47,803 nucleotides of DNA from Chloroflexota bacterium (GTDB lineage: Bacteria; Chloroflexota; Anaerolineae; J036; Brachytrichaceae): positions 1 to 47,803 of the forward strand of contig JANXLU010000014.1 in the NCBI GenBank assembly GCA_025354985.1, in the 5' to 3' direction. Numbering within the stretch: position 1 is the first letter of the stretch; every line of letters begins with the position of its first letter. The notes beneath the pieces are model-generated. The model worked only from the letters and a program-made list of their open reading frames with translations, did not search any database and was not told the DNA's origin. A program made the translations under genes and the position numbers. Positions 266 to 36,424 of this stretch are shown one piece after another.

Positions 266-487
266 CTACACCGGCATCAAAGGCTCTTCCGCCGCATAGT
301 CAATCTCGGCGAGCTTGGCGCTAATCGCGCCCCAGGTCGCCGGCACCTCGAAGTCTACGGTCACGACCTTGGTGGTGACATCGGCCGTAACGTGCTTTAC
401 CCCGGCGAGCTCACCCACTTCATTTTTGATGGTGCGGGTGCAGCCTTCACAACCGATGTTTGGAACGATCACTGTTTTGCTAGTCAT
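266..487 (-). CDS. copZ: Heavy-metal-associated (HMA) copper-chaperone-like protein
   Basis: A 73-residue HMA-domain protein of the CopZ/Atx1 type, expected to carry Cu(I) in the cytoplasm to an exporter or to the sensor. The metal site is G-C13-E-G-C16 near the N-terminus, the CxxC loop of the family; the usual preceding MxC Met is replaced by Ile-Gly. The rest fits the short beta-alpha-beta-beta-alpha-beta fold, at the normal length of about 70 residues. The start is the internal Met at 487 because AAGGAG lies 8 nt upstream; a longer frame from 505 would place that site inside the coding region. It follows csoR by 18 nt on the same strand, so co-transcription and metal induction are likely. 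No CopA ATPase is visible; it could lie left of the window. Confidence 0.85.
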   Translation of the reverse strand: MTSKTVIVPNIGCEGCTRTIKNEVGELAGVKHVTADVTTKVVTVDFEVPATWGAISAKLAEIDYAAEEPLMPV

Positions 488-505
488 ATTATTTTCTCCT
501 TGCAA

Positions 506-775
506 TTACTTATGCCGAAACACGTCTGCGATCTCGCGCAGCACGCGCTCGCGCTCATGTGAATCATCTCCGCGCACCGCGTTGGTCACGCAGGTTGCCA
601 GGTGCTCTTCAAGAATCTCCTGCGAGACCTTTGAAAGCGCAGCCTGCACGGCCGAAATCTGACGGATCACGTCGATGCAATACTGATCCTCTTCGACCAT
701 GCGCGCCACTCCACTCACATGTCCCTCGGCAATCTTGAGCCGGCGTATGACCTTTGTGCGCTGAGCTGATTCCAT
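506..775 (-). CDS. csoR: CsoR/DUF156-family metal-sensing repressor
   Basis: An all-helical DUF156 repressor of the CsoR/RcnR/FrmR superfamily. The Cu(I)-sensing Cys-His-Cys triad of CsoR is present: Cys in DQYC, then His and Cys in EEHLATC, spaced 25 and 4 residues apart as in characterised CsoR proteins. That favours copper over the nickel, formaldehyde or persulfide branches. I chose the ATG at 775 (89 aa). The upstream ATG at 784 overlaps a perfect -10 hexamer (TATAAT), and 775 lies 7 nt from it, predicting a leaderless mRNA. It heads the operon with the HMA protein. A G/C-tract palindrome directly upstream is the likely operator, so autoregulation is expected. Confidence 0.9.
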   Translation of the reverse strand: MESAQRTKVIRRLKIAEGHVSGVARMVEEDQYCIDVIRQISAVQAALSKVSQEILEEHLATCVTNAVRGDDSHERERVLREIADVFRHK

Positions 776-782
776 AAGCAGC

Positions 783-809
783 ATTATACCCTATCCCCCC
801 GGGGGGGAT
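783..809 (-). promoter_or_regulatory. csoR promoter -10 and G-tract operator
   Basis: On the minus strand a perfect TATAAT (788-783) sits 7 nt before the chosen csoR start. Immediately upstream is a palindrome, ATCCCCCC and GGGGGGAT around a central G (793-809). G/C tracts of this kind are typical binding sites of the DUF156/CsoR superfamily. The operator fills the place of the promoter spacer, and no good -35 box is visible, so repressor binding would directly occlude RNA polymerase. Confidence 0.65.
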
Positions 810-23164: not shown

Positions 23165-23189
23165 TAGACAGCACAGCTGGTAGTGAAAA

Positions 23190-23195
23190 ATTATA
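23190..23195 (-). promoter_or_regulatory. -10 box of the ABC-2 exporter operon
   Basis: A perfect TATAAT on the minus strand, about 25 nt before the GTG start of the ATPase gene. No clear -35 is seen. Confidence 0.45.
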
Positions 23196-23310
23196 GTGCA
23201 ACGATCGCGCGAAAAGGAGGCATGGTCCGAATCGGAAAAATCCCGAGACTAACCCATGCCAACGACAGGCTGACACCAGCCCGGCCCCGCAATGGCGGAA
23301 AAACTCAAAC

Positions 23311-23337
23311 GGCCGGCGGCACGTTGTGCCGCCAGCC
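23311..23337 (-). terminator. Rho-independent terminator of the His-rich gene
   Basis: GGCGGCAC (23315-23322), loop GTT, GTGCCGCC (23326-23333), extended by GGC/GCC outside one mismatch. On the minus strand it is followed by a T-rich GTTTGAGTTTTT. It begins 26 nt after the His-rich stop codon. Confidence 0.8.
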
Positions 23338-23362
23338 GCCGAGCCCGGGTTCGTGATCCGTA

Positions 23363-23644
23363 TTACGCTGCGTGGCGATGGTGCGCCAGGTGATGGTGCG
23401 CATCGTGATTGGCATTCGCTCCATGAATGCCGTCTGTTGCGTCGTGCGTGTGGTCCGCCTCGCCACCGGCGTGATGATGCCGATGATGATGGTGGCCATG
23501 CGTGCCATGCTCATGCTTGTGGCTGTGATGCCCCTCGCCATGATGGACATAGGCCGGTGCGGCTGCGTCGGCCGGCACGGGCGGGTGCGTTGCAGGTGCG
23601 GGTGTCGCGGGTACTGGGGGAGTTGCGGGTGTTGGGTCTGCCAT
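23363..23644 (-). CDS. Small histidine-rich, probably metal-binding protein
   Basis: A 93-residue protein with 26 His (28%). Residues 1-30 are Pro/Ala/Thr-rich; from about 34 on it is a run of HH, HHHH and HHH clusters with Gly, Asp and Glu. It has no signal peptide, no Cys and no recognised fold. Composition recalls Ni/Zn-storing His-rich proteins, but homology is not claimed. The gene has a full transcription unit of its own: a near-consensus promoter exactly 6 nt before the ATG and a strong terminator 26 nt after the stop. That argues it is real despite its low complexity. It lies downstream of an importer lacking ATPases. Metal binding is inferred from composition only. Confidence 0.7.
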   Translation of the reverse strand: MADPTPATPPVPATPAPATHPPVPADAAAPAYVHHGEGHHSHKHEHGTHGHHHHRHHHAGGEADHTHDATDGIHGANANHDAHHHLAHHRHAA

Positions 23645-23650
23645 GCGACC

Positions 23651-23679
23651 AGTATAAGGCCGGTATGCGCCCCTGTCAT
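23651..23679 (-). promoter_or_regulatory. His-rich gene promoter (leaderless)
   Basis: On the minus strand: ATGACA (23679-23674), a 17-nt spacer, TATACT (23656-23651), then 6 nt and ATG at 23644. Five of six bases match at each hexamer, with ideal spacing. The transcript should begin at the ATG. Confidence 0.75.
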
Positions 23680-23805
23680 GTTACTTGAATCACAGCGGCA
23701 CCGTTACTTCAGGCACAGAAGGCGCACGCCACTTCTGTCAATCTTTTTTGCGGCCGCGATTCTGCCTGCTGTCGCAACGGCAGGTTGTGGGCATGGCGTG
23801 GCCGG

Positions 23806-29670: not shown

Positions 29671-29676
29671 ATTTTA
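29671..29676 (-). promoter_or_regulatory. -10 box of the AlkZ-like gene (leaderless)
   Basis: TAAAAT on the minus strand with exactly 6 nt to the ATG at 29664 and no Shine-Dalgarno. It overlaps the last codons of the multicopper oxidase gene. No clear -35 is seen. Confidence 0.45.
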
Positions 29677-31257
29677 TGTGGCGGCGACAACCACAAACTG
29701 CCCCATCATGCCCTCGTCTTCGTGATCCAGCATATGACAGTGAAACATATATGGCGTCGTGGGATCCGCGAAATCGTCGAAGCGCATGATGATTCGCGCT
29801 TTTTCACCGGGTGCAACCACAACGGTGTCCTTGTTGCCCATCTCGCCCGGCGTCAATGACCGCGCACTGCGATCCAAAATTTGAAATTGAACGTCATGCA
29901 CGTGAAATGCGTGGAATTCTCGCGTGGGGTTGGTGATGTTCCATAGCTCAGTATCACCCAAGCGTACGCGAAACGTATTATTTGCGTCGGCCATACCTGG
30001 CATATCCGGCATGCTCAAGGCGGACATCATGTGCCCGTTGATGGTATACGCGCCGTTATCACCGCCCAACACCAATTCGCGCGTCGTGCCGGCGGCGGAC
30101 ACAGCCAACCGCTCGATGCCTGCGAGTTTGCCCGGCAGCGCCTGGGCGGCGCCGGAGCGCGTGGGTGTGATGGCCAGCAATGCTACGCTGGCGCGTCCAT
30201 TGCCATTGTTATCGTTGTTACTCCGGCGACTGCCAAAACTCTGGAGCGTGAAGCCGCGGGTTTGCGTGACATCGACCACGATTTCGACGCGCTCCCCCGG
30301 GCCGATGTCCAGCCGGGTCATTGGCACGGCCGCAGGCAGCAGCCCACCATCCGTGGCCACCTGATGAAACGTGCGGCTGTCGTCAAAGCCGAGCGCGTAG
30401 AAAGACTGGCTTGAACCATTAAGAATCCGAAAGCGCAACCGGGTCTGGTCGGTGACAAGGGTCGGTGCGACGGTGCCGTTGACCAAGGTCTGTGTGGTTC
30501 CACCGCGGGCACCACCCCCTCGACCACTGCCGCCACCCGTGTTAATTTGTCCGCTTTGCGACAATGATAGATCCTGGAGGATCAGCGGAAAGTCATCCAC
30601 GCCATAGGTGTTGGGAAACGACGCCGCGACCGGATTGTTGTCGTCGATGATAAACATTCCGGCCAGCCCGCGCAGCACTTGCTCCCGGGTTCTGCCCATC
30701 GTGTGCGGGTGATACCACAGCGTGGCGGCCGGCTGCATGATGGTGAACCGGGGTGTCCACCGGGCATTGTTGGCGATCAACTGATAAGGTCCACCATCCA
30801 TTGCAGCGGGCACGTGCAATCCATGCCAGTGCAACGTGGTGGACTCGCCGATGTGATTTGTGATGTTCATCATCACCGCATCCCCTCGGTTGACGCGCAC
30901 TGTGGGGCCAAGGTAACCGCCATTGATACCGAGGGTGGCGGTGGTGAGGTCCGGCAAAAAGTGCGACTGACCCTGCTGCAGGCTAAGATCAAACACCTTG
31001 ATGCCGTCTTGATCCCTCGACGCCAGCACCGGAGGGATTGGCAGGGTTGTGCCCGATCCCGTGTTGGTGCTTATAGCTGCACCATTCCTCGCACCAGTAG
31101 GCGGCGTGCTGGTTGGGTTTGAGCCAACAGGCAAACTAGCCGGTGAACCGCGGCGATCGCCACACCCAGCCAAAAAAATCGCGCCGGTGCCTCCAAAGAC
31201 AGCCAGCACGCGGCGACGGGTCATCGTTTGGTTTTTATCCGAAAGATAGGTTTTCAT
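29674..31257 (-). CDS. Exported multicopper oxidase
   Basis: A 527-residue, three-cupredoxin multicopper oxidase of the laccase/CueO/bilirubin-oxidase type, which couples one-electron substrate oxidations to reduction of O2 to water. All four copper motifs are present: HWHG (143-146), WYHPHT (182-186), FHAFHVHDVQF, and HCHMLDHEDEGMM with the trinuclear-centre and type-1 ligands. The N-terminus TMTRRRVLAVFGG is Tat-like and ends in a lipobox, FLAGC (Cys32), so it is probably a folded-exported lipoprotein. A Gly-rich insertion (GGGSGRGGGARGG) interrupts domain 2. The start at 31257 has AGGAC 8 nt upstream. Likely roles are copper/iron detoxification or phenolic oxidation. Confidence 0.92.
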   Translation of the reverse strand: MKTYLSDKNQTMTRRRVLAVFGGTGAIFLAGCGDRRGSPASLPVGSNPTSTPPTGARNGAAISTNTGSGTTLPIPPVLASRDQDGIKVFDLSLQQGQSHFLPDLTTATLGINGGYLGPTVRVNRGDAVMMNITNHIGESTTLHWHGLHVPAAMDGGPYQLIANNARWTPRFTIMQPAATLWYHPHTMGRTREQVLRGLAGMFIIDDNNPVAASFPNTYGVDDFPLILQDLSLSQSGQINTGGGSGRGGGARGGTTQTLVNGTVAPTLVTDQTRLRFRILNGSSQSFYALGFDDSRTFHQVATDGGLLPAAVPMTRLDIGPGERVEIVVDVTQTRGFTLQSFGSRRSNNDNNGNGRASVALLAITPTRSGAAQALPGKLAGIERLAVSAAGTTRELVLGGDNGAYTINGHMMSALSMPDMPGMADANNTFRVRLGDTELWNITNPTREFHAFHVHDVQFQILDRSARSLTPGEMGNKDTVVVAPGEKARIIMRFDDFADPTTPYMFHCHMLDHEDEGMMGQFVVVAAT

Positions 31258-31265
31258 AAGGTTCT

Positions 31266-31279
31266 GTCCTGTCAAGGAC
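31266..31279 (-). promoter_or_regulatory. Hairpin sequestering the oxidase ribosome site
   Basis: On the minus strand GTCCT-TGAC-AGGAC forms a 5-bp stem whose 3' arm is the AGGAC ribosome site of the multicopper oxidase, 8 nt before its ATG. Pairing would hide the site, which suggests modest translational control. The stem is short. Confidence 0.35.
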
Positions 31280-31355
31280 GCCGATACGGTAACCAAGCGG
31301 TGTTTGGAAATTATGTGCAAACTGATTACAGATGTATACCGAGCAGGTCGAGGCC

Positions 31356-31521: not shown

Positions 31522-31782
31522 GTGAGTACATCCTTGACCATACGGAATCTTGCGGCACCGGTTAAGCAGAAAATTCACATGCGCGCTGCCAGCCATGAAA
31601 TATCCATGGAGGCAGAGGCCCGTAACATTCTTACCCTGGCCGTTGCCGAGACACAGCCACAGGAGGACACGGCATCTTCCGCACAAGAGCGGATGAAAAC
31701 TCAGATTAGCCTTCTGCGCGGTCTATGGAGAGGCCGCGGCACAGTTACTGAAATGATGTACGAGCTGCGCGGTGATGACTAA
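31522..31782 (+). CDS. Ribbon-helix-helix antitoxin (FitA/VapB-like)
   Basis: An 86-residue Arc/MetJ-type ribbon-helix-helix protein. The N-terminal strand and helices read TSLTIRNLAAPVKQKIHMRAASHEISMEAEARNIL, matching FitA-like antitoxins that bind operator DNA as dimers and neutralise a PIN RNase through their C-terminus. The start is GTG at 31522, 6 nt after a TACAAT box. The toxin gene should follow with overlap, and an ATG at 31775 indeed overlaps the end of this gene by 8 nt. That toxin frame is ruined, leaving an orphan antitoxin. Confidence 0.82.
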   Translation: MSTSLTIRNLAAPVKQKIHMRAASHEISMEAEARNILTLAVAETQPQEDTASSAQERMKTQISLLRGLWRGRGTVTEMMYELRGDD

Positions 31783-32014: not shown

Positions 32015-32494
32015 TCACACTCTCAAGGTATCCCACCGATGCGCGGCGACCATGCGTGCGAGGTGGCCGACGTTTTCGGTGGCGATTACGGGATTGCAGG
32101 CCATGGCGCGCGCCGCGACAAGTGTTTGCGCAGCCAGAATCACGTCAGCATCCAGTGCGGTGTCGGGCGCGGTGGGCCGGCCCTGTTTGCGCATCTGGGC
32201 CCAAAGTTCTGCGGCCATGCGCATCATGGCAGTGTTGATCGGAACAAAGATTAGCTGCGCCTTCAGTGCATCAAGGGCTGCCAAGCCCGCGAGCTTGTCG
32301 GCCCGCAGCAATTCGCGACGCAATTCGTAATCTGCCATCTCTGGCAGCACGACACGAATCCCCGAATCCAGCACAGTGCGTAACCAGGCCTTGCAAGCCG
32401 CGGCGGCGTCACCACCTCTTGGGTTGGTTATGAACCCGAGAACGCTTGTATCCAACACCAATAGGTCATTCCCGCCCAGAAGTGGCGCGCTCAC
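32015..32494 (-). CDS. PIN-domain toxin (VapC-like RNase)
   Basis: A 159-residue PIN-domain protein, expected to be a Mg-dependent RNase toxin. Acidic active-site residues are in place: D15 in LVLDTSVLG, E57 in MADYELRRE, D115/D117 in ALDADVILAAQ, plus the C-terminal IATENVGHL (usually a TxN/D motif). It starts with GTG at 32494, overlapping the antitoxin stop by 4 nt, so it is co-translated with it. It belongs to the type II toxin-antitoxin module with the upstream HTH gene. It is unrelated in sequence to the decayed PIN gene next door beyond the fold. Confidence 0.85.
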   Translation of the reverse strand: MSAPLLGGNDLLVLDTSVLGFITNPRGGDAAAACKAWLRTVLDSGIRVVLPEMADYELRRELLRADKLAGLAALDALKAQLIFVPINTAMMRMAAELWAQMRKQGRPTAPDTALDADVILAAQTLVAARAMACNPVIATENVGHLARMVAAHRWDTLRV

Positions 32495-32943
32495 GTTGGG
32501 GAAGCCGGATAAGGCTCGCGAAACGAGGATCGGTCCGCGTTTAACGCGTGTTGCAACAACGCAAGCGTCTCGCGTTGCTCGCGCGTTTCATCGGCGGTAC
32601 CGTTTGCAAGCGCATCCAACTGATCAATAACGATCCTGTGGCGACGCATACGCTCGTCGGAATCAGTCAAGTAGTGTTGCGCGCGCAACGCAGCTTCGGC
32701 ATCGCCGGAAAACAATTCCAACAATTCCGGTTTCGGAGATTCAACCGTGGCGGACCAACTCAGCGAACCGTTTTTTGTGCGGAGCGCAAGAATCTCATCC
32801 TTGTTGACAAGAATTTTGCGCTCCGCATGGCGTGCGGAGATCGTGCCCGAACGGGCCAATTGCCGCACGTATTCCACGTTGTAACCCGTGGTTTGCGCCG
32901 CATCCTTCACGGTGACCCAGTTTTGCGCTTGTGTGGTTGTCAT
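32491..32943 (-). CDS. HTH (excisionase-like) antitoxin
   Basis: A 150-residue protein with an N-terminal helix-turn-helix/excisionase-like domain (WVTVKDAAQTTGYNVEYVRQLARSGTISARHAERKILVNKDEILAL). A helical C-terminal region, rich in Glu and Arg (about 85-140), probably wraps the toxin. The start at 32943 has a GGGGG ribosome site 8 nt upstream; a longer frame from 32976 is possible. It overlaps the PIN gene by 4 nt. The upstream region carries repeated TAGCAC words that may be its operator. Confidence 0.78.
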   Translation of the reverse strand: MTTTQAQNWVTVKDAAQTTGYNVEYVRQLARSGTISARHAERKILVNKDEILALRTKNGSLSWSATVESPKPELLELFSGDAEAALRAQHYLTDSDERMRRHRIVIDQLDALANGTADETREQRETLALLQHALNADRSSFREPYPASPT

Positions 32944-32964
32944 GGTGGAACCCCCGGAACCGAC

Positions 32965-32988
32965 ACTATAGCACAATCTAGCACTATA
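32965..32988 (-). promoter_or_regulatory. TA-module operator candidate
   Basis: Two TAGCAC repeats start at 32969 and 32979, exactly 10 bp apart (one helical turn), bracketed by CTATA-type flanks that also contain TATAGT -10-like sequence on the minus strand. It lies 22 nt upstream of the HTH antitoxin start, consistent with autoregulation. Confidence 0.45.
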
Positions 32989-33052: not shown

Positions 33053-36000
33053 TTACGGCGCCTCCACGGAGCCGACGTCACAATGCGGGCCTTGCGGGCG
33101 GGTCACCCCGCGTTGATCGGTAGCCGGGCAGATGGCATCGTCAGCGGCGTCGCGGGCCGGGCTGCCAGTCAGAAGAGCATGGGTGAGGGTGGGCCCGCCG
33201 TTGTTGGCAAGCGGCCCGACCATGGCATCACCCACGATTTGGTCACTGGCCACCGGGTTGCAACTGGCATCCTGCACCACGTTATGCCCACCCGAAGTCA
33301 TGATCACGCTGCCCGCAGTATGCCACTCACAGGCATACCAATGATTGCCGGTGACGATTGAATTGGTCAGTTTCAGACTTGGAACAAAGGCGCTGAACGA
33401 ACCCACAAAGATCGCGGATGGCGCCCAGTCCGGGCCGATGTTATTGGCAATGGTCGAGTTCGAAATGTCCACGCTGCCATCGGTGCCAAACAGAGCACCA
33501 CCGTGCCAGCCCGTGGACTGGTTGCCGCTGACCGTGCTGTTGTCGATCTTCACAATGCCCAGGGTGCGCAAGCCGCCGCCCACATCGTTGGAAACGTTGC
33601 CGCTGACGGTGCTGCGGATGATCGTGGTCGTGGTGTTGAAGAAGGAGTAAATGCCCCCACCCGACCAGCGCGCCTGGTTGCCCGCCACGGTGCTGTCGAC
33701 CAACATCAAGCTCGACCCGCCACCGTTATAGATGCCACCGCCACCCTGCCAAAAGTCCCCGGCGTTGGTCGCCATGGTGTTGCTGAGCACGGCCACATGA
33801 TCCAGCGTGAGCGCGCCATTGTTCAGCACCCCGCCGGCGAGCTGATAGCCGTAGCCTTTGGCCAGCGTGAGGTTGCGCACGGTCGCGCTGATCCCGGCAT
33901 TTACTTCGAGCACGCGCACCGCGCCTCCACCGCTAACAGTCAGCCCGGGCGCGCCCGCGCCATCCACAGTCACGTTCTTGGCGAGGTTCAGCGCGCTCAC
34001 GTTGGTGATCGTGCCGCCCGCCAGCGCCGGTGCAAAATGCACGGTGCCTCCCACGCACACGCTCGCCAGCTTGGCACGCAACGAGCCCGGACCGCTGTCG
34101 GCAGTGTTGGTCACAGTGGTGTCCATCGGGCAGGTCAATCGGATTTGATCCAGCATCACCGGGGTAGTGCGCGGTCCGCGTACGGTCACATTTAGCGCCG
34201 TCACGCCAGCCAGGTCGAGGGTGTGCCCGTCCTCGCCCGTGAAGGAACCAAATGGCAGGGTGATCTTGCGCCAGCCGGCAAAGTCATCCTTGAAGCTGGC
34301 CTGGAACGTGTCGGACTTCTGGCGCGCCTGAAACACGCGCACATAGTCAAACGAGGTGGTCTGCGGGAAGGTGACATCGGCGCCAACCGGGCCGCCAAAG
34401 TTGCCGCCCACCGCCACGTTCATCAGGATGAAGAATGGCTTGTTAAACACCCAGCGCTTGCCGGCCAGGAATGCATCGGCGGGCGTGGCGGTGAAATAGG
34501 GCGCGCCGTCCACCAGCCAGGTGATCTTGTTTGGCTGCCACTCAACCGCGAACACGTGATAGTCATCCGCCAGTGGCTTCGCCAGGTCGATCGTGCCACC
34601 ATAGCTGGCCCCGCCGGAATAGCCCGGGCCATGGATGGTGCCAAACAGCTTGTTGGGCAGGCGTCCCACGTTTTCCATGATGTCGATCTCGCCCGACAAC
34701 GGCCAGGGCGCCTGATCGATGTCGGTCCCAAGCATCCAGAACGCCGGCCACAAACCGGCGCCGCGCGCAATCTTGATGCGCGCCTCCACCCGACCATACG
34801 CCACTTCAAAGCGCTTCTGGGTGAGCAGCCGCGCGGAGGTGTATTGGCACGGACCATAATAACAATTCAAGCTGCCGTCAGCCTGCTTGGTGGTGATATT
34901 CAGGTGACCCCGGCCATCGGTGGCCGCGTTTGCCGCGCCGTCGGTATAGGTCTCCAGCTCACTGTTGCCCCAGCCCGGGTTACCAATGCCGGTGCCATCA
35001 CCAAGGTCGCGCCCCCAAACCTGTTGATCCGGCGCAGTGCCGGCTTTGCCGTCAAATTCGTCGCTCCAGACCAGCTTCCACTTGGAAGAGTCGGTGATCA
35101 CGCCGCGTGCATTGGTCAGGCTGACATCGACGCCGCGGTTTGTGCGCGCGCCGTAATACCAGAAGCTGAGCCCGGAAGCGTCGCTCCAATCCTGGGCGAT
35201 GGGGAACGTCCGGCCAAATTGCAGGCCATCGCCCCGCTCTTTGCCGATGGCTTGCAACACGTGCTCATAGGCGCCCTGCCCCGGAAGCGCCAGCGGCGCT
35301 CCCGCGGCGATCTCTGGGTTGCTCAGCGTCACGCTGTCATCCGCGTGCCACAGATACGGCGGGGTCTCAAAGTCATCCAGCAGCGCCGCATCGTATGGCT
35401 CGTTGTCCAGAATATCGACCCTGGCAGACGGCGGGGTGCCCAGCGACGCGCCACCTGTCGGGTTGGACAGCTCCACCACAACACCGCGCTCGCCCTGATA
35501 CTTTTGGTCGTCGATTGTCTGCACATTAAAGGATTGCTGGGTCACGCCGGGCGCAAACGTCAGCATGCCCGAGACCGGGGTGTAATCCCGATTGGGGATG
35601 GCCGGGCCGGAGGTGGTGGCAAAGTTAACCGTGACCGTGGTGGTCACCGGTTTGCTCAGCTTGGCCGTAACCACGGCCGCTGCGCCCTCCACCACCTTGT
35701 ATTCATTGGTCGAGAGACCAACCTTGAGCGGGCGCACTGGCGCCACGCCATAGACCGAGACATCGTCCACGAAATAGGTCTGTGGGCTGGCGGTAGTCAC
35801 CGTGCCAAGCGCCCATCCATGCACTTCGGTGAGGCCAAAGCCATCGTTGGGCGCGCCATTGCCGATCTCCTTGCGAACCAAATTGGCGAACGGAATCTTT
35901 AGCAACTGCCAGCCGCTAAAGTTGTCTGGAATAGTGATCGACCAGCGCTCGGCGTCATCCTTGGTGCTGCCGGGGTTGCGGTTGTCCAACACGTCCAGAA

Positions 36001-36424
36001 ACAGTGAGGTGCCGCTGTTGTTGCCATACAGCCAGAACGAAATACCCTCATACGCGCTCCAGTCCTGGGTCACCCAGGTGTTGACCGCACCGTTCTCAAA
36101 GCCGTGGGTAAAGCCCGCATAAGACACCACGTTTACAGTCATCTGCAGCACGTGGTTGCCCGCCGCCGAGCCCGGCACCGGCGCCGGGGGCGCGGTTACC
36201 GTGCTGATCGCCCCGGTGGTGGCGGCGTTGGAATCCTGAAACGTATTGAACCCGATGGCGATGGCGTTGCCATCCACGCCGGCGGGCAGACCGGTCTCGA
36301 AGTCATCGACCAGCGGCAGCGCGGCGGCGAGAGCCGGGCGGATCAGTCCGGCAGGGACGATCATTAGGTTGGCCATCAGGCTGATCGCCAGTGGCAGGGC
36401 ACGCAGTAGATTGGGTTTCTTCAT
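33053..36424 (-). CDS. Secreted multidomain GH16 glycosidase
   Basis: A 1123-residue secreted enzyme. The signal peptide is at 1-34 (cleavage near ALAAA). Residues 36-226 form a CIA30/CBM11-like beta-sandwich. Residues 232-342 are a Calx-beta domain (PNRDYTPVSGMLTFAPG, VDILDNE). Residues about 347-440 begin a second CBM-like domain. A GH16 module (about 445-699) has the retaining catalytic signature E579-I-D581-I-M-E584, so it should cleave beta-1,3/1,4-glucans, agar, carrageenan or similar. After it, 703-764 completes the second CBM fold. Residues 765-1123 are a right-handed beta-helix rich in NST/G turns. GGAAA precedes the ATG. It is probably cell-surface or extracellular, for polysaccharide breakdown. 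Confidence 0.92.
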   Translation of the reverse strand: MKKPNLLRALPLAISLMANLMIVPAGLIRPALAAALPLVDDFETGLPAGVDGNAIAIGFNTFQDSNAATTGAISTVTAPPAPVPGSAAGNHVLQMTVNVVSYAGFTHGFENGAVNTWVTQDWSAYEGISFWLYGNNSGTSLFLDVLDNRNPGSTKDDAERWSITIPDNFSGWQLLKIPFANLVRKEIGNGAPNDGFGLTEVHGWALGTVTTASPQTYFVDDVSVYGVAPVRPLKVGLSTNEYKVVEGAAAVVTAKLSKPVTTTVTVNFATTSGPAIPNRDYTPVSGMLTFAPGVTQQSFNVQTIDDQKYQGERGVVVELSNPTGGASLGTPPSARVDILDNEPYDAALLDDFETPPYLWHADDSVTLSNPEIAAGAPLALPGQGAYEHVLQAIGKERGDGLQFGRTFPIAQDWSDASGLSFWYYGARTNRGVDVSLTNARGVITDSSKWKLVWSDEFDGKAGTAPDQQVWGRDLGDGTGIGNPGWGNSELETYTDGAANAATDGRGHLNITTKQADGSLNCYYGPCQYTSARLLTQKRFEVAYGRVEARIKIARGAGLWPAFWMLGTDIDQAPWPLSGEIDIMENVGRLPNKLFGTIHGPGYSGGASYGGTIDLAKPLADDYHVFAVEWQPNKITWLVDGAPYFTATPADAFLAGKRWVFNKPFFILMNVAVGGNFGGPVGADVTFPQTTSFDYVRVFQARQKSDTFQASFKDDFAGWRKITLPFGSFTGEDGHTLDLAGVTALNVTVRGPRTTPVMLDQIRLTCPMDTTVTNTADSGPGSLRAKLASVCVGGTVHFAPALAGGTITNVSALNLAKNVTVDGAGAPGLTVSGGGAVRVLEVNAGISATVRNLTLAKGYGYQLAGGVLNNGALTLDHVAVLSNTMATNAGDFWQGGGGIYNGGGSSLMLVDSTVAGNQARWSGGGIYSFFNTTTTIIRSTVSGNVSNDVGGGLRTLGIVKIDNSTVSGNQSTGWHGGALFGTDGSVDISNSTIANNIGPDWAPSAIFVGSFSAFVPSLKLTNSIVTGNHWYACEWHTAGSVIMTSGGHNVVQDASCNPVASDQIVGDAMVGPLANNGGPTLTHALLTGSPARDAADDAICPATDQRGVTRPQGPHCDVGSVEAP

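Follow-up and report, generated by a model that had tools for sequence, protein, structure and literature searches.

Is an open reading frame in which more than a quarter of the codons specify histidine a gene or low-complexity noise, and what might its product do? This question is raised by a stretch of 47,803 nucleotides from a Chloroflexota bacterium (JANXLU010000014.1, positions 1 to 47,803), hereafter called the window. On its minus strand, the ORF at 23363..23644, called as such and backed by homologues, encodes a protein of 93 residues (P0001) that starts with ATG. As the initial annotation had it, 26 of these residues are histidines (28%); 19 are alanines and 11 are prolines, and glutamine is absent. 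No ATG, GTG, TTG, or CTG is present in the 12 codons that separate the start from the preceding in-frame stop.

The histidine-rich frame is under purifying selection

Histidine contents of this order are rare in the genome. In a 448-kb sample, at least 15% histidine was found in 4 of 2328 ORFs of at least 60 residues, and only P0001 and its paralogue (see below) exceeded 16%. Aligned with a homologue from Ktedonobacterales, the frame showed 16, 14, and 30 differences at the first, second, and third codon positions, respectively, in 68 codons (dN 0.24, dS 1.36). Aligned with module 2 of the paralogue, it showed 17, 17, and 45 differences in 72 codons, or 19, 19, and 50 in 78 codons with other gap costs. 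Besides the first pair, dS was computable in one of the five remaining module pairs and failed in four. Three overlapping long ORFs (P0002, P0003, and P0004) occupy three other frames. Since they would put the variable base at codon positions 2, 2, and 1, respectively, they are not the selected frames and represent shadows of the histidine frame.

A spurious low-complexity ORF would fit with the lack of a match to P0001 in Pfam, NCBIfam, or PHROG, with the failure to find an orthologue in three congeners, and with the long ORFs in the other frames. It would fit neither with the excess of differences at third codon positions nor with homologues at two places, one of them in another class, and we consider this reading, which the codon-position data already refute, as practically untenable. 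The 93-residue ORF is a real protein gene under purifying selection and is set apart from low-complexity noise, as had been proposed.

P0001 belongs to a new family of histidine-rich modules

Elsewhere in the genome, another locus (C85, L031:1189-1752) encodes a paralogue of 187 residues that harbors two copies of the module. In a protein search with P0001, one copy showed 56% identity over 77 query residues (E 8.1e-16) and the other 46% over 76 (E 1.3e-7). A third gene (E 2e-19) is located on JANWHL010000242.1, which belongs to a metagenome-assembled genome (MAG) of Ktedonobacterales, that is, of another Chloroflexota class; a piece of 1000 bases matched this contig without a difference. Its product has 76 residues, of which 24 are histidines, and 45 of 68 aligned residues are identical to P0001. 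In the core reaching from APAYVHHGEGHHSHKH to HHHAGGE, identity rises to 32 of 34 residues, as counted manually on the alignment. None of the three proteins contains cysteine, tryptophan, or phenylalanine. The module starts with a Pro/Ala-rich N terminus and continues with the motif P-x-YVHxG(D/E)GHHxHKHxHG, a histidine block, and a final HTH...H; in the first of the two paralogue modules, the motif has diverged.

Because histidine-rich sequences align by composition, a shuffle control was run. In each of the six module pairs, the observed similarity was reached by 0 of 1000 composition shuffles and, likewise, by 0 of 1000 shuffles in which the histidine positions were kept fixed. The YVHxG(D/E)GHHxHKH proteins are a homologous family beyond composition, comprising four modules in three genes. 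P0001 had no match in Pfam, NCBIfam, PHROG, or the solved structures of the PDB (up to E 1). Judged by these empty family libraries, the P0001 family is a new sequence family, and it appears to be undescribed, the literature search having returned no match either.

Two proteins from Cyclobacteriaceae (L111 and L112; 149 and 181 residues from stop to stop) start like lipoproteins and end in YGxGEGHHxHKH. This short histidine tail is presumably alike by chance or convergence.

The family is very rare and was probably transferred between classes

We searched for further members at several taxonomic levels, in genome sets that overlap. Members were detected in none of the 27 other genomes of the order, which corresponds to one family (E 1e-4), in none of 395 other sampled genomes of the class (E 0.001), and in none of 46 other genomes of the class of the Ktedonobacterales homologue. 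In the phylum, 1 of 399 other sampled genomes had one, namely, the Ktedonobacterales MAG. In the class and phylum searches, scoring was limited to 12 candidates per genome, so that weak members could be missed. A homologue of P0001 was not found in three congeners (78 to 94% complete), and for the genes flanking P0001 the best congener matches were only 39 to 50% identical. The frame, for which the initial annotation had named frameshifts in close relatives as a refuting observation, is conserved in the paralogue and in the homologue from the other class.

Several weaker candidates were discarded. A DNA search of 59 relatives gave two short matches, of 62 and 35 query bases (G010 and G022), which were not taken as homologues. 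In a protein search of 39 relatives (E up to 1), the matches listed besides the paralogue had E values of 0.00498 or worse and identities of 25 to 55%; several contained internal stops, and they were ascribed to composition, mostly without individual check. Another match (L097, E 0.0014) runs antisense to genes that, from their translations, resemble cas1/cas2, and with a second alignment no match there fell below 1e-4.

Wider scans gave a similar picture. A DNA-pattern scan of a collection in which 84,980 species are represented by one genome each retrieved 12 stretches, of which only the Ktedonobacterales contig was real, the remaining 11 being other frames or unrelated proteins as read from their ORFs. 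Another scan of the same collection returned 586 stretches, none confirmed by tblastn, which may mask histidine-rich sequence. Viral contigs gave no pattern match and 600 stretches in the other scan, of which none was confirmed, and tblastn found no match in plasmids and phages. The family is very rare and was found here in two distantly related Chloroflexota genomes.

The contig of the homologue looks Ktedonobacterial rather than misbinned, judging by the one gene tested, a GlmS-like gene beside the homologue. Among the 178 matching genomes (201 searched), the 19 with the best scores all belonged to the class of Ktedonobacterales, with identities of 58 to 73%, compared to 48% for the genome of the window. 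P0001 is nearer to the Ktedonobacterales protein (dN 0.24) than to the two modules of its own paralogue (dN 0.31 and 0.47). This order of similarity, together with the patchy distribution, favors a duplication followed by horizontal transfer, and from these three genes the family has probably moved between Chloroflexota classes.

The gene has its own promoter-like site and terminator and is probably leaderless

A near-consensus promoter had been claimed 6 nt before the ATG, and our scan recovered it. The -35-like hexamer ATGACA (23674..23679, minus strand) and the -10-like hexamer TATACT (23651..23656, minus strand) are separated by 17 nt, match the consensus at 10 of 12 positions over 23679..23651(-), and end 6 nt before the P0001 start codon. 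The bases around the start read ACT GGT CGC ATG, and a Shine-Dalgarno sequence is absent. As TATACT begins exactly 12 nt before the ATG, transcription is expected to start at, or within 1 to 2 bases of, the A of the ATG. With the -10 box so near to the start codon, the P0001 mRNA is probably leaderless, as far as the spacing indicates.

An equally good site with its -10 box ending 4 to 10 nt upstream preceded 4 of 6000 random plus-strand ATGs in the 448-kb sample and 2 of the first ATGs of 271 gene-like ORFs. These ORFs came from a crude calling that kept long frames with excess G+C at third codon positions and took the first ATG as the start. Promoters matching at 9 of 12 positions preceded 5 of the 271 first ATGs at the same distances of 4 to 10 nt, none of them at exactly 6 nt. 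The -35 element is therefore not general, and it is the -10 box that carries the case for a leaderless mRNA. Of the 271 ORFs, 15 had a TANNNT motif ending 6 nt ahead of the first ATG, 12 had one at 8 nt, and 15 had one at 9 nt. The background at 20 to 39 nt averaged 2.75 ORFs per position, and the rate at 6 nt before internal ATGs was 0.3%. The count at 7 nt (5 of 271) falls outside this enrichment, and that at 14 nt (9 of 271) is raised too. The enrichment of TANNNT at 6, 8, and 9 nt makes it very likely that leaderless genes form a real class in this genome, and the -10 box of P0001 stands at one of the enriched spacings.

According to the outline of a survey of bacterial leaderless genes (PMC3160421), their TANNNT signals sit about 12 bp upstream of the starts, and in Chloroflexi such genes were recorded in 4 of 12 genomes, with an average of 4.7%. 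P0001 resembles the genes outlined there in the position of its TATACT, 12 nt upstream, and in lacking a Shine-Dalgarno sequence; its own 5' end is a prediction from sequence.

Downstream of the gene, a terminator scan and folding identified an intrinsic terminator (23298..23340, minus strand) made of a 15-bp G+C-rich stem (23340..23308) followed by TGAGTTTTTC. A folding energy of -33.7 kcal/mol (z -6.3) was computed for 23345..23300, and none of 200 shuffles folded as well. The strong hairpin and T-run announced by the initial annotation are thus present, but by the scan boundaries the stem starts 22 nt past the stop codon and not 26 nt.

The locus had also been called a self-contained transcription unit. 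Its own promoter-like site and terminator agree with this; the expected separation from the upstream oppC gene does not, as the scan detected no minus-strand terminator-like site between the two genes. Since oppC ends only 161 nt upstream on the same strand, P0001 could instead be the distal cistron of an operon with the substrate-binding protein (SBP) and the permeases, reached by read-through. We judge this quite unlikely: the gene has its own promoter-like site, with 10 of 12 matches at leaderless spacing, and importer genes were not found before the genes at the two other family loci. P0001 is probably monocistronic.

This arrangement of promoter, terminator, and leaderless start is not common to the family and was found only at the P0001 locus of the three. 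Shine-Dalgarno-like sequences precede the ATG of the paralogue (AAAGGA) and of the Ktedonobacterales gene (AAGGAG), and the scan found no promoter-like site upstream of either. No terminator was detected after the Ktedonobacterales gene, and downstream of the paralogue there is a hairpin of 14 pairs whose T-tail is weak. No upstream 11-mer, with up to one mismatch, was common to the three genes, and thus no common regulator is seen.

Two plus-strand features were noted around the gene: a promoter-like site with 9 of 12 matches (23165-23194) and a hairpin (23715-23749; ACAGAAGGCG..CTTCTGT, then CAATCTTTTTT) that points against the His gene and folds at -9.1 kcal/mol. Together, they could delimit an antisense transcript that spans the gene. 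An Rfam scan of the window gave no match.

The neighborhoods of the three genes point to no metal

The metal-related genes invoked in the initial annotation exist: an SBP/permease importer upstream of P0001, a CsoR/CopZ pair, and a multicopper oxidase are all present in the window. Their bearing on a metal role found no support. The multicopper oxidase (29674-31320) is located about 6 kb from the His gene, and CsoR (506-784, minus strand) and the CopZ-like HMA protein (266-505, minus strand) about 22.6 kb from it; at distances of 6 to 23 kb, these copper genes lend no support. The importer consists of an SBP_bac_5 binding protein and two permeases. The binding protein matches 13 NCBIfam models but reaches the cut-off of none, and it stays far below those of NikA (145 of 393 bits and 128 of 600 bits). 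The C permease, with 311 bits, exceeds the 300-bit cut-off of the NCBIfam model "Opp2C nickel transporter permease," and the permeases do not reach the NikB and NikC equivalog cut-offs.

The paralogue lies between a sensor kinase/NarL-type response regulator pair and an aldo/keto reductase. The response regulator is 163 nt upstream, and the paralogue could be cotranscribed with the pair. The Ktedonobacterales homologue adjoins the GlmS-like gene. No metal-related gene linked to the family was seen at any of the three loci, and no partner gene was conserved among them.

Further features of the window were noted. The CsoR-family repressor and the CopZ-like gene that follows it (266-784, minus strand) lie near the window end, beyond which a copper ATPase could be located. 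The window also harbors a FitA-like ribbon-helix-helix antitoxin with no identified partner (31522-31782, plus strand), a PIN-domain/HTH_17 pair (32015-32976, minus strand), and a protein of 1123 residues with CBM_11, Calx-beta, and GH16 domains (33053-36424, minus strand).

P0001 may act as a buffer of divalent metals

With gravy values of -1.1 to -1.5, P0001, its paralogue, and the homologue are all hydrophilic. The sequence of P0001 shows no hydrophobic stretch that resembles a signal, and the protein is predicted to be cytosolic. In a single-sequence AlphaFold model, the protein had no fold (mean pLDDT 65.9, pTM 0.19) and a single, C-terminal helix, and its computed charge rises from -4.2 at pH 7 to +14 at pH 5.5. 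Histidine clusters this dense generally bind divalent metals in vitro, and dense histidine without cysteine points to borderline divalent metals. Metal binding and buffering, predicted from composition, is the most plausible role for a protein with 28% histidine; this part of the metal storage proposal is supported, and the part drawn from the neighborhood is not.

Overall, we lean, with somewhat more confidence than doubt, toward a genuine and probably monocistronic leaderless gene whose product is a cytosolic, disordered buffer of divalent metals, in a small, duplicated, and probably horizontally transferred family. This small, largely disordered protein would chelate divalent metal ions via its closely spaced histidines and so buffer or store them, with Zn, Ni, Co, and Cu(II) as candidates. 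The module would have been duplicated in tandem at the second locus of the genome, and horizontal transfer would probably account for its presence in a Ktedonobacterales lineage. We chose a generic buffer over a specific nickel store because the neighborhoods point to no metal.

The more specific proposal is that P0001 stores nickel for nickel enzymes, as Hpn does for urease, and is coupled to the neighboring nickel-type importer. Its histidine content and the score of the C permease are what one would expect, and Hpn and Hpn-2 are likewise described as two paralogous His-rich proteins (PMC4671568). The importer itself argues otherwise, given the low score of its binding protein against NikA, the missed NikB and NikC cut-offs, and the failure to find importer genes beside the other two family members. 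Furthermore, the [NiFe]-hydrogenase large subunit (PF00374) had no match in the genome of the window (95.8% complete) or in the Ktedonobacterales MAG (58% complete), while it matched in all three congeners, where no His gene was found. This pattern weakens a hydrogenase-linked nickel store, and we regard a nickel store as unlikely. A role without metal would cast P0001 as a disordered, pH-responsive polyhistidine protein that binds a partner, a nucleic acid, or an envelope polymer or that forms condensates. The disorder of the model, the large charge swing between pH 7 and pH 5.5, and the three neighborhoods, in which no metal genes were seen, are compatible with this, as is the tight conservation of the non-histidine core residues, beyond all His-fixed shuffles. 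The lack of a conserved partner gene at the three loci and the general tendency of dense histidine clusters to bind divalent metals in vitro speak against it, and we consider such a role rather improbable.

Clustered histidines for divalent metals are familiar from the His-rich tails or loops of SlyD, HypB, UreE, CDF, and ZnuA. In P0001, by comparison, the His-rich segment makes up most of the protein, and no Pfam domain was found in it. As outlined in PMC4671568, Hpn and Hpn-2 of gastric Helicobacter are small, intracellular, His-rich, and paralogous proteins of restricted distribution; Hpn has 28 histidines in 60 residues and two cysteine pairs, and Hpn-2 has a glutamine-rich tail. Compared by this description, and not by sequence, P0001 is similar in being small and probably intracellular, in occurring as two paralogues per genome, and in its restricted distribution. 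Its histidine content (26 in 93 residues) is high but clearly lower than that of Hpn. It differs in having no cysteine for the Hpn pairs and no glutamine for the Hpn-2 C terminus, in its Pro/Ala-rich start and YVHxG(D/E)GHHxHKH core, and in its origin from the phylum Chloroflexota. Since P0001 lacks the cysteine pairs, the glutamine tail, and the taxon, we did not file it as Hpn; by analogy, it may work most like Hpn and Hpn-2, and we claim no kinship.

One observation counts against a plain buffer: with 32 of 34 residues identical, the core is more strictly conserved than simple soaking up of metal would require. A bolder and rather doubtful extension would be a horizontally moving polyhistidine family that grows by duplication of a module of about 90 residues, whose near-invariant core forms a specific multi-metal site or drives a metal-dependent assembly, making it an independent counterpart of Hpn.

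Taken together, P0001 is encoded by a conserved gene that would be lost to low-complexity filters, and its recognizable core marks a new family of small proteins. If the predicted metal binding is true, a Hpn-like buffer would exist far from Helicobacter and would have spread between Chloroflexota classes, and in the genome of the window it would be expressed from a probably leaderless mRNA. The P0001 gene is also a concrete example with which leaderless expression of small proteins in Chloroflexota can be tested.
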